From NCBI RefSeq assembly GCF_002205675.1, contig NZ_NISK01000005.1:1-64000 (forward strand): a DNA stretch of 64,000 bases, in the 5' to 3' direction. Below, one piece after another: positions 28,562 to 31,818 of this stretch (its first letter is position 1; each line of letters starts with the position of its first letter). Origin of the DNA: Sphingopyxis bauzanensis (lineage in GTDB: Bacteria; Pseudomonadota; Alphaproteobacteria; Sphingomonadales; Sphingomonadaceae). The notes under the pieces were generated by a model that did no database searches, was not told the DNA's origin, and worked only from the letters and a program-made list of their open reading frames with translations. Position numbers and translations under genes: made by a program.

Positions 28562-29443
28562 TTAGGACGTTGTTTCGTGCGCGAGTGCGTCGATCAGCCA
28601 GCCCTTGAAATGCGACATCGCGCCGCTTTCGGGGCGCGACATCAGGCGGGTGAGCCAATAGCGACCGGCGTCGATTCCGATCTTGAAAGGCTGGGTCAGC
28701 ACTTCGGATGCAAGTTCGCGGGCGAACATGGCGGGCGGCGCGAGGGCGATGCCAAGCCCCGCGGCGGCCGCAGCGGCCATCAGGGCCGAGCTGTCGAACA
28801 TCGGGCCGCGCAGCAACGGGGCGGGGACGCCAGCGGCGGCAAACCACCGCGTCCATTCGTCGGCGCGGTATGAGCGCAGCAGGCGTTCGGGTATCAGGTC
28901 GGCGGGGGTCTTGAGCCGCGCGGCGATGGCGGGGGGGCAAAGCGGGGTCATCGGCGCGGCAAGCAGTGGTTCGGCGTGGGTGCCGTGCCAGGCGCCATCG
29001 CCGAAGCGGATCGCGAAATCGAGCGCCTCGCCGGCGAGGTCGACGCGGTTGTTGTTGGTCGAGATGCGCAGGTCAATGCCCGGATGCGCGCGGGCAAAGG
29101 CGTCGAGGCGCGGAAGCAGCCAGCCGGTGGCGAAGGTGCCGACGACCCCGACCTTCAGCACCTCGCGGAAGCGGCCGCCGCTATACTGGTCGAGCGTCGC
29201 GGCGATGCGGTCGAAGGCGTCGGCGACGACGGGGACGAGTGCATGCCCCTCGTCGGTCAGCGCAAGGCCGCGCGGGAGGCGGTGGAAAAGGCGGGTGCCG
29301 AGGCGGCGTTCGAGCTGTGCGACCTGATGGCTGACCGCGCCCTGGCTGACGCAGAGTTCGATCGCGGCGCGGGTGAAGTTGAGGTGGCGCGCGGCGGCGT
29401 CGAAGGCGCGCAGGGCGTTGAGTGGGAGCTGGGCGCGGTCCAT
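28562..29443 (-). CDS. ampR: LysR family regulator, AmpR/GcvA-like
   Basis: 293 residues from the ATG at 29443 (MDRAQLPLNALRAFDAAARH); the longer upstream frame lies inside a hairpin repeat. The helix-turn-helix is NFTRAAIELCVSQGAVSHQV and the following RGLALTDEGHALVPVVADAF closely resembles AmpR. It diverges from the metallo-beta-lactamase gene, the standard ampR-bla layout, so it likely controls that gene in response to cell-wall fragments. The palindrome at 29554-29570 is a candidate site. GcvA-type function is the alternative. Confidence 0.82.
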   Translation of the reverse strand: MDRAQLPLNALRAFDAAARHLNFTRAAIELCVSQGAVSHQVAQLERRLGTRLFHRLPRGLALTDEGHALVPVVADAFDRIAATLDQYSGGRFREVLKVGVVGTFATGWLLPRLDAFARAHPGIDLRISTNNNRVDLAGEALDFAIRFGDGAWHGTHAEPLLAAPMTPLCPPAIAARLKTPADLIPERLLRSYRADEWTRWFAAAGVPAPLLRGPMFDSSALMAAAAAAGLGIALAPPAMFARELASEVLTQPFKIGIDAGRYWLTRLMSRPESGAMSHFKGWLIDALAHETTS

Positions 29444-29477
29444 TGGGTCACTTTGCTTTCTCGGCCTATGTCGCCTC

Positions 29478-29547
29478 GTCACCCCGGCCTTGATCCGGGT
29501 CCATGCGGCGGCGATGGCTTATGGATCCCGGACCAAGGCCGGGTGAC
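29478..29547. repeat. Long hairpin repeat in the ampR-bla intergenic region
   Basis: The ends are complementary over most of 25 bases (GTCACCCCGGCCTTGATCCG against GGATCCCGGACC...GGCCGGGTGAC). This GTCACCCCGGCC-type element is a common palindromic repeat in alphaproteobacterial intergenic DNA. Confidence 0.75.
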
Positions 29548-29553
29548 CAAACT

Positions 29554-29570
29554 CATGAGAAATTCTCATG
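29554..29570. promoter_or_regulatory. Palindrome upstream of the beta-lactamase gene
   Basis: CATGAGAAATTCTCATG is a perfect 17-base palindrome 70 bases upstream of the lactamase ATG. It carries a T-N11-A-type LysR symmetry and is the best candidate for AmpR-like regulator binding. Confidence 0.6.
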
Positions 29571-29640
29571 GCTTTGTCGAGAAATGATGCTTTGTCCGGC
29601 GCGGTCCGGCTTGGCAGTTTGGCCGCGAAGGGAGACGAAA

Positions 29641-30513
29641 ATGTTCGAAGCAATCAGTCTGTTGGCGTGGCTTGCCGCGACGAGCGGGGCGCCAGTGCTG
29701 GCGGTCGATCCGCTCACCCAGCCGATCACAACGTCGCGGACCGCCGAATGGTTGGCGCCTGCGCCGCCTGAAAAAATTTATGGCAACAGCTATCTGGTCG
29801 GGTTCGGCGGCATGAGTGTGGCGTTGATCGACACCGGGGACGGATTGGTGCTGGTTGATGGCGCGCTGCCGCAAGCGGCGCCCGCGATCCTGGCCAATGT
29901 CCGGAAGCTGGGGTTCGACCCCAAAGACATCAAATTTATTCTGAGCACCGAGCCGCATTTCGACCATGCCGGCGGGCTCGCGGCGCTGGCGCGCGACACC
30001 GGCGCGACGGTGGTGGCGAGCGCGCGCGGGATTGAGGGGTTGAAGTCGGGACGCCACGCCGCCGACGATCCGCAGCTCGCTTATGGCGGCAGCTGGCCCG
30101 CGGTGACCACGGCCACGCGTGTGATGGCGGATGGTGAGGTGCTCAAGCTGGGCAAGCTGGGGATCACCGCCCATGCGACTCCGGGGCATACGATGGGCAG
30201 CATGAGCTGGAGTTGGCCGGCGTGCGAGGACAACGAGTGCAACGCGATCGTGTTTGCATCGAGCCTGAATCCCGTGTCGGCTGACGATTATCGGTTCACC
30301 GGCGCTGCGGGGGCGCCGTTCATTGCGGCCTTTGCGCAAAGTTACCGGACGATGGACGCGCTGGCCTGCGACATCCTGATTTCGGCGCATCCCGACAATG
30401 CGGGCGAGGGGCGGTACAATGCGAAGCCGGGGGCGTGCCGCGCCTATGCCGATCGGTCGCGCCAGGCTTTGGCGAAGCGGTTGGCGGAGGAGAAGGCGGG
30501 GGCCGCAAAGTAA
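29641..30513 (+). CDS. Subclass B3 metallo-beta-lactamase with active-site glutamate (B3-E type)
   Basis: 290 residues from the ATG at 29641, after GGGAGACGAAA. An N-terminal signal-like segment is followed by the MBL fold. The metal motif, normally HxHxDH, reads E104-P-H106-F-D108-H109 (STEPHFDHAGG). The other ligands are present: His183 (TPGHTMG) and His250 (ISAHPDN). SSLNPVSADDYRF matches the B3 Ser221 region. The layout EWLAPAPPEKIYGNSYLVG is typical of B3 enzymes. A Glu in place of the first zinc-1 His is known from a few enzymes, including one from Sphingobium indicum. Its role would be periplasmic beta-lactam hydrolysis, under the divergent AmpR-like regulator. Confidence 0.88.
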   Translation: MFEAISLLAWLAATSGAPVLAVDPLTQPITTSRTAEWLAPAPPEKIYGNSYLVGFGGMSVALIDTGDGLVLVDGALPQAAPAILANVRKLGFDPKDIKFILSTEPHFDHAGGLAALARDTGATVVASARGIEGLKSGRHAADDPQLAYGGSWPAVTTATRVMADGEVLKLGKLGITAHATPGHTMGSMSWSWPACEDNECNAIVFASSLNPVSADDYRFTGAAGAPFIAAFAQSYRTMDALACDILISAHPDNAGEGRYNAKPGACRAYADRSRQALAKRLAEEKAGAAK

Positions 30514-30654
30514 CGGGTTGTTGATCCTCGCTGCCGCGTAGCGATGGTGAGGTGGCCGTCCGCAGGAGTGAAGGAGGGGCGGAGACGCACCATTGCTGCC
30601 CCTCCACCTTTCGGTCCCCCTCCCCATGACGTCGTCACGGCGAGGTTTATGCGT

Positions 30655-31818
30655 CTATTTATCGACGACCAGACAGGCCTGTCCGCCCTTGCTGAGCGAG
30701 GCGCAGAAGTTGTTGGCTTCGCCCTTGTTGGCAAAGCCCCCGGTCTGGAGGCGGGTGACCTTCCCGGTCTTGACGTAGGTCGGCTGGCGCGCAGCGACGG
30801 CTGGGTATTTTTTGCCGAGCGTCAGCCAGAGGTTGCGCGCATTGGCCTCGACCCCGAAAGCGCCGAGCTGGGCGCGCCAGGGACTTTTACCGCCGGTAGA
30901 ACGCGGCGGCGTCGGGGTTTCGCGGACAGCGATGGGCGCGTTGTTGATGGGCGGTTTGGCTTTGGCCGCAGCGGGCGGCAGCGTGCCGCTGGCGGGAGGC
31001 GGGGCGTAGGTCGTGCCGGGCTTGCCCTTGGCGGTGCCCGCAGCCGCGGCGGCTTCGGCGGCAGCGCGTGCAGCAGCTTGCGCGGCGGGCGTCGAGGGCG
31101 CCGCGGGGGCGATTACCGGTGGCGGCGTATAGCCGGCGCCGGGCACCGAAGCCGGCAGGCTGGCGGTCTTGATTGGTGAGGCGACGGCGGGTTTCGCCGC
31201 GGGCGGCGGCGCAGCGGTCACCGCGGACAGGCGCGCGCGCGCCTCGTTTTTTTCGATTTCGGGCAGCATAGCCAGACCGCGCTGGCGCTGTTCGAGCGGG
31301 ATCAGGCTGTCGAGCTGGGCAAGGCGTTCCGATGCGATGCCAAGCCCGGCGTCGCTGGCGCGTTTGGTCAGCGCATAGGCGCGCGGCCAGTCCTGCGCGG
31401 CGAGGTCGCCGTTGAAGTGCGCGGTGCCAAGGACATATTGCGCCCGCGGTTCGCCGCGTTCGGCCGAGCGGAGGATGAACGGCATCGCTTCGTCGCGGCG
31501 GTTGGCGGTGAACAGGACGAGGCCCAAATTATCCTCGGCCTGCAAATGCCCCTGTTTGGCGGCGCGGCGATACCAGGCTTCGGCTTGCGCCAGATCGGTG
31601 GGAACGCCGCGGCCAAGCTTGTATGCTTGCCCCAGATTGAACTGGGCATCGGCATCGCCCGCGAGCGCAGCGGGACGCCATTCGGCGACAGCGCCCTGAT
31701 AGTCGCCGCGCTGCCAGGCATCGACGCCATCCTTGACGTCGGCGTGGGCGGGCGCGGTCAGCATCGTTGCCGCGATCAGCGGCAGTGCCAGCGAAATGGC
31801 GGTGCGGAATTTGCGCAT
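30655..31818 (-). CDS. Periplasmic SEL1-repeat protein with C-terminal SPOR domain
   Basis: 387 residues from the ATG at 31818 (GGAGA upstream). A signal peptide ends APAHA. SEL1/TPR repeats follow at about 25-150 (AQFNLGQAYKLGRGVPTDLA, EAWYRRAAKQGHLQAEDNLG), then a long Ala/Pro-rich linker. The SPOR domain is at about 310-387 (WRAQLGAFGVEANARNLW, ending CASLSKGGQACLVVD). SPOR domains bind denuded peptidoglycan at the division site, so a septal role is likely. It is divergent from the parA-like gene. Confidence 0.9.
   Translation of the reverse strand: MRKFRTAISLALPLIAATMLTAPAHADVKDGVDAWQRGDYQGAVAEWRPAALAGDADAQFNLGQAYKLGRGVPTDLAQAEAWYRRAAKQGHLQAEDNLGLVLFTANRRDEAMPFILRSAERGEPRAQYVLGTAHFNGDLAAQDWPRAYALTKRASDAGLGIASERLAQLDSLIPLEQRQRGLAMLPEIEKNEARARLSAVTAAPPPAAKPAVASPIKTASLPASVPGAGYTPPPVIAPAAPSTPAAQAAARAAAEAAAAAGTAKGKPGTTYAPPPASGTLPPAAAKAKPPINNAPIAVRETPTPPRSTGGKSPWRAQLGAFGVEANARNLWLTLGKKYPAVAARQPTYVKTGKVTRLQTGGFANKGEANNFCASLSKGGQACLVVDK

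Follow-up and report, generated by a model that had tools for sequence, protein, structure and literature searches.

A B3-E metallo-beta-lactamase gene of Sphingopyxis bauzanensis is divergent from an AmpR-type regulator gene and preceded by a conserved promoter box

In Stenotrophomonas, Okazaki and Avison reportedly showed in 2008 that the L1 and L2 beta-lactamases are induced through an AmpR-type regulator. The likeness to the locus described here is that of a B3 enzyme under an AmpR-type regulator; there, however, the regulator gene lies beside L2, whereas here it lies beside the B3 gene. The AmpR-AmpC systems of Pseudomonas, Citrobacter and Agrobacterium likewise consist of a divergent AmpR-type LysR gene and a beta-lactamase gene, together with AmpG- and NagZ-type genes, but their target is a class C serine enzyme, whereas the target here would be a B3-E metallo-enzyme for which induction is proposed. 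According to the accessible parts of the two papers, AmpC activity in Agrobacterium is AmpR-dependent and induced by ampicillin (PMC9238390), and Caulobacter crescentus BlaA is constitutive, with the suggestion that mechanisms other than AmpR may act in alphaproteobacteria (PMC13046382). A divergent pair of LysR regulator and B3 gene, as seen here, is also described for Phytobacter, where CARR represses CAR-2; in the accessible part of that report CARR is poorly similar to AmpR, and neither piperacillin nor ampicillin relieved the repression (PMC12434095). The B3 variant with the ligand set EHH/DHH has been named B3-E, and in the portion of the text available SIE-1 of Sphingobium indicum (7luu) is its sole characterised member, in which the tetrahedral Zn1 site is preserved and the two zinc ions lie further apart, with a likely two-zinc mechanism and a preference for cephalosporins; Glu, unlike Gln, apparently did not arise several times (PMC10318434). 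A letter of 2020 counted, in the part available, 90 EHH/DHH proteins and stated that B3-E enzymes confer resistance in E. coli (PMC7381538).

The window, a stretch of 64,000 nucleotides of S. bauzanensis DNA, holds the features collected in Table 1. The bla open reading frame begins with ATG and encodes 290 amino acids with the metal motif EPHFDH. An earlier note on this DNA had read Glu as the first zinc ligand with the other five in place, and this was confirmed, as the remaining ligands (His106, Asp108, His109, His183 and His250) are kept. All six are invariant in an 18-row alignment. Its assignment to the B3 family also held: the protein scored 257.6 bits with NCBIfam model NF033105 (subclass B3; cut-off 240), its closest solved structure was 7luu (E 1.1e-132), and a Foldseek search with the AlphaFold model (mean pLDDT 89.2; residues 1-14 below 50) returned 7luu at the top (TM 0.89/0.97, 73% identity in the structural alignment). 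The likeness that the note had drawn to the S. indicum enzyme was borne out as well, with Glu at standard position 116 in both. The canonical HHH/DHH set of B3 is thus replaced by EHH/DHH, and because Glu104 stands in place of the first His, the window enzyme is a B3-E variant and not a canonical B3 enzyme. SIE-1 and the window enzyme share ligands, fold and clade; the difference is that SIE-1 has been characterised biochemically and the window enzyme is known from its sequence. An upstream ATG inside the conserved box was also considered as the start of bla and rejected, since the putative promoter comes only after it and 29641 has a Shine-Dalgarno sequence ahead of it. The enzyme leader (29641-29703) is without basic residues, which is unusual for a signal peptide, and several genus-mates are alike.

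Table 1. Features of the bla locus, with positions in the window
Feature	Position	Strand	Basis
ampR-like LysR-type regulator gene, divergent from bla, 293 aa (stop codon 28562-28564)	28565-29443	-	Pfam, NCBIfam, solved relatives
Inverted-repeat element, REP-like by eye, between regulator start and box	29483-29543	.	Sequence, pattern search
17-bp dyad CATGAGAA-A-TTCTCATG with LysR-type T-N11-A motif (29556-29568)	29554-29570	.	Pattern search, 46 promoters
Conserved 30-bp regulator/promoter box (consensus CTCATGGCTYTGTCGAGAAATGATGCTTTG)	29565-29594	+	Genome scan, footprint with controls, information content of 46 sequences
Putative bla promoter TTTGTC ... GGCA	29591-29616	+	Fixed spacing in 46 loci
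Putative Shine-Dalgarno sequence AAGGGAG of bla	29628-29634	+	Sequence reading
bla, B3-E metallo-beta-lactamase gene	29641-30513	+	ORF and translation, NF033105, 7luu match, AlphaFold
Glu104 codon GAG (standard position 116; first Zn1 ligand position)	29950-29952	+	Sequence reading

The spread of the Glu residue was followed through genome searches at several levels. With the enzyme query P0001, 207 of the 397 family genomes had a match at E <= 1e-20; the 69 family loci taken from these matches in two samples of 29 and 40, mostly the best-scoring ones, held 33 Glu and 36 His enzymes, and unsampled matches may hold more Glu cases. Glu occupied the same position at all 29 other family loci of the first sample (L003-L031). 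A scan of named genomes (best 80 of 290 matches) and a class-level search (matches in 9 of 385 genomes, that of the window included) located Glu loci in Sphingopyxis, Sphingobium, Novosphingobium, Blastomonas, Sphingomonas, Sphingosinicella, Altererythrobacter, Caulobacter and Janthinobacterium, and at one further alphaproteobacterial locus (L152). A phylum-level search matched 8 of 398 genomes at E <= 1e-55, among them the window's genome and G042; the six other loci were all of the His type, one of them (L198) being L042 again. Altogether, Glu was found at 63 distinct loci including the window, encoded by GAG in 40 and by GAA in 23. Against these loci, and against the 90 proteins in the accessible part of the 2020 letter (PMC7381538), the earlier statement that Glu is known only in a few B3 enzymes does not stand. 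Altered zinc-1 affinity, which had also been proposed, is disfavoured by analogy, as the accessible account of the SIE-1 structure suggests a preserved tetrahedral Zn1 site (PMC10318434).

An enzyme tree of 111 rows was built with residue columns 116-117 omitted; four duplicate loci and L002 were left out, every second His row of L035-L071 was retained, and the low-scoring MBL-fold rows were reduced to four, which served as outgroup. The 64 Glu rows, including SIE-1, formed one clade (support 100/99) that needed a single change, and the window enzyme lay inside it, in common descent with SIE-1; the comparison with characterised B3 enzymes that the earlier note had called for thus came out in favour of its assignment. 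Because the Glu rows form one supported clade, the residue is inherited and not a local oddity, in agreement with the single origin given in the accessible part of PMC10318434. The window enzyme, SIE-1 and SMB-1 also fell together in a group of 96 rows (99/97), outside of which stood the four outgroup rows, across a weak branch (70/24). The residue after Glu was Pro in 59 of the 64 rows, Ala in four and Val in one. By ligands and tree position, then, the window gene is a further member of the already described B3-E type, close to SIE-1, and its Glu residue is genuine and conserved but has been described before. At the Janthinobacterium loci L099-L102 the B3-E enzyme has EAH instead of EPH and is without a divergent regulator. 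Because these loci have Glu, THIN-B was considered as a hidden B3-E enzyme, and the idea was dropped when three of the four Janthinobacterium proteins scored 213-247 bits over the matched stretches, against a THIN cut-off of 700. At another locus (L153), a B3-like protein has the motif HPHFDY, with the second-site His121 changed to Tyr.

The earlier note overlooked the divergent AmpR-type regulator beside bla. The encoded protein matched the Pfam models HTH_1 (PF00126, 81.4 bits) and LysR_substrate (PF03466, 119 bits). Its best NCBIfam model was PenR (NF041130) at 389 bits, and the PenR identity was not assigned, as the model's own cut-off is 625. Its nearest solved relatives were the AmpR effector domains 5mmh and 3kos (266 and 223 bits), followed by full-length GcvA (181). 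The structures 3kos and 3kot differ at three positions, Thr103, Ser221 and Tyr264, and the regulator keeps these as well as Gly102 and Asp135. The three positions lie in what we take to be the AmpR effector pocket. Among 49 linked regulators (47 beside Glu and two beside His enzymes), Gly102 was kept in 47, Thr103 in 46, Asp135 in 48, Ser221 in 46 and Tyr264 in 48, with one row uncovered at Asp135, Ser221 and Tyr264. Judged by its closest relatives, the regulator is an AmpR-type LysR protein.

The arrangement is widespread among B3-E loci. A regulator gene of this kind was divergent and within 500 bp of the match start at 47 of 63 distinct Glu loci; with four duplicates included, the count is 50 of 67. 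Within the sampled family loci the pairing was found at 26 of 33 Glu loci and at 0 of 36 His loci, a His sample that consisted mostly of best-scoring matches and missed more distant B3 genes adjoining such a regulator; overall, 2 of 59 His-type loci had it, both in Luteimonas. At the remaining 16 of 63 Glu loci no such regulator was found within 1.4-2.5 kb of upstream sequence, and the enzyme may therefore not depend on one.

The intergenic region of the linked loci has a strongly conserved control site. Of the 47 linked Glu loci, 46 had the box with at most 8 mismatches in 30 (median 1), the exception being L031 with 13. Three of the 16 unlinked Glu loci reached this limit (L087-L089), L095 having 9 mismatches, and none of the 59 His loci did, nor the single Gln locus. 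Because the consensus of the box was drawn from loci of the linked set, the exact score there is partly by construction; this does not apply to the contrast with the remaining sets. Mononucleotide-shuffled upstream regions gave about 15 mismatches on average. A second site of the box was sought in the genome and none was found, with one match at up to 3 mismatches and 0 control hits. The dyad pattern had one match in the window against 0.07 expected, and its T-N11-A motif was conserved across the 46 aligned promoters (T in 46 of 46, A in 45 of 46), in which the distances from the dyad to TTTG and GGCA are fixed. A scan of 29400-30700 with the sigma-70 consensus found no promoter between the regulator and bla. 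In the Sphingomonas loci L087, L088 and L089 the box is kept (5-7 mismatches) and no regulator was found in 2.5 kb upstream. With 3 matches in the window where 1.6 would be expected, the inverted-repeat pattern is not above chance and gives no sign of a dispersed repeat, and several genus-mates are without the element, with an intergenic region of about 100 bp instead of about 200; the element might alter expression of the regulator.

To see what such regulators adjoin in general, the family genomes were searched with the regulator itself, and 47 of 397 genomes, the window's included, had a match at E <= 1e-85. A beta-lactamase gene adjoined 46 of these 47 regulators: 27 were B3-E, 12 were class A (divergent, with the motifs STFK or SSFK, SDN or SDG, and KTG) and seven were other B3 genes, four with Gln and three with His. 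The notion that the regulator tracks Glu as such was therefore too strong, as Gln- and His-type B3 genes outside the first sample are adjoined as well. Regulator relatives beside class A and Gln- or His-type B3 genes had 58-68% identity. The B3-E box was weaker at the 19 non-B3-E beta-lactamase loci (6-16 mismatches), and the ten partner enzymes scanned from these loci all passed a class A or B3 cut-off. At L177 (G043:C15:162900-167800; 71% identity) no beta-lactamase gene is adjoined; instead, the regulator and the box, with 3 mismatches, precede a gene for an alpha/beta-hydrolase, possibly a partner replacement. The Gln-type B3 genes at L186-L188 share their strand with the AmpR-type regulator and are not divergent from it, and at L191 a His-type B3 gene that is split over two frames and looks broken lies beside an AmpR-type regulator.

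In a regulator tree of 72 rows (without the short L092 and with the addition of three plasmid copies), the regulators of 48 of 49 B3-E partners fell in one clade (99/99) together with that of L177, and that of L031 lay outside on a long branch; several deep branches of this tree are weak and two long branches (L194 and L196) meet. Partner labels needed 8 changes on the tree, the outgroup row being counted as its own label. Enzyme and regulator distances were correlated (r 0.783, n=46; 0 of 2000 permutations as high). Furthermore, the Caulobacter enzymes and regulators had the same nearest relative outside Caulobacter, L026, which suggests that the two genes were transferred jointly.

The host genome also has genes for parts of the cell-wall pathway. 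Over the matched stretches, an AmpG-type gene (TIGR00901, 412.8 bits; cut-off 350) and a NagZ-type gene (NF003740, 217.9 bits; cut-off 207) were present. The AmpD match was partial, covering residues 69-173 of the 183 of the E. coli protein, and the AmpD-like stretch of 109 amino acids scored 106.7 bits, under the cut-off of 143. Elsewhere in this genome a class A-like gene (G000:C23:248030-248905) scored 199.5 bits, just under the cut-off of 200.

Taken together, we consider it probable that the locus is a two-gene, inducible, cell-wall-sensing beta-lactamase module made up of the B3-E enzyme and the divergent AmpR-type regulator. Family, ligands, divergent arrangement, conserved box and the AmpG- and NagZ-type genes are what can be read from the DNA itself. 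The enzyme would act in the periplasm, most likely with two zinc ions, Zn1 held by Glu104, His106 and His183 and Zn2 by Asp108, His109 and His250, and would open beta-lactam rings much like SIE-1. The regulator is predicted to bind the dyad and the adjoining conserved box. If it works as AmpR does, a cell-wall precursor would keep it a repressor, and wall fragments arising from beta-lactam damage and entering through AmpG would turn it into an activator of bla. Because the enzyme is paired with an AmpR-type gene and the control site is strongly conserved, beta-lactam wall damage probably turns the enzyme on in the host.

It is also conceivable, if unlikely, that the LysR protein acts as a simple repressor or senses a different signal, and that the enzyme is not inducible by beta-lactams. 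CARR/CAR-2 would be the precedent, being a divergent LysR/B3 pair without beta-lactam induction in the accessible part of the report (PMC12434095), as would the constitutive C. crescentus BlaA described in the available part of PMC13046382. However, the portion of the CARR paper available gives that regulator as poorly conserved with AmpR (PMC12434095), whereas AmpR is the closest relative of the window regulator and the pocket residues are kept; its relatives lie beside class A and B3 genes alike, and AmpR-dependent AmpC activity is known from another alphaproteobacterium, Agrobacterium (accessible part of PMC9238390).

Far less plausible is a drifted MBL-fold hydrolase with a physiological substrate other than a beta-lactam, for which one can point to the zinc ligand changes of weakly active B3 enzymes such as the RQK type (available part of PMC10318434). 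SIE-1, from the same clade as the window enzyme, is active on all major beta-lactam classes in that same portion of the paper (PMC10318434), B3-E genes gave resistance in E. coli according to the part of the letter available (PMC7381538), beta-lactamases make up 19 of the 20 partners read beside related regulators at loci other than B3-E, and the invariance of the six ligands likewise argues against drift. A base-calling error has a negligible chance given that Glu recurs at 63 distinct loci, as does a non-lactamase MBL-fold protein of the glyoxalase II type, in view of the NF033105 score above cut-off and of the enzyme tree, which included MBL-fold outgroup rows and no glyoxalase II; nothing was found in favour of either, and both were rejected. 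The two-gene inducible module is thus the reading retained.

That bla is paired with an AmpR-type switch gene and has a conserved box is a more useful result than the residue, and inducibility is directly testable. In the literature searched, with most subscription papers outside its coverage, no paper on an AmpR-B3-E pair was found, which is weak evidence of novelty. A divergent regulator is also present in Sphingobium fuliginis L082, the nearest tree row to SIE-1. Set beside the constitutive BlaA of C. crescentus and the AmpR-AmpC pair of Agrobacterium, 47 of 63 B3-E loci apparently have AmpR-type control, so that the enzyme could go unnoticed in susceptibility tests that use no inducer.

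Whether bla is an intrinsic gene of the lineage, as the earlier note supposed, was answered in part. Seven of the 11 same-genus genomes among the family matches carry the Glu enzyme with its regulator, and a SPOR-domain gene lies downstream of bla in 14 of 14 distinct genus loci, adjoining or within about 1.9 kb, so that the window copy looks like a settled, ordinary chromosomal gene; the other four genomes have a His-type B3 gene instead, and relatives lie on large plasmids. Somewhat more guardedly than for the module itself, we lean towards a wider history in which one AmpR lineage in sphingomonads, and by transfer in some Caulobacter, has swapped its partner repeatedly (class A serine, B3-H, B3-Q and B3-E), B3-E being held by essentially one regulator clade with its own conserved operator; alphaproteobacteria would then have a second induction circuit that senses the cell wall, one that has a metallo-enzyme as its target and is already carried on a conjugative plasmid. 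A plasmid search matched eight records, five of them at 29-38% identity; the best three are sphingomonad plasmids that carry the same cassette of Glu enzyme, regulator and box. Two of these were typed as non-mobilizable, and the third, pTomMM15b (L164, AP027316.1), was typed as conjugative and has the B3-E/AmpR pair near a relaxase gene.
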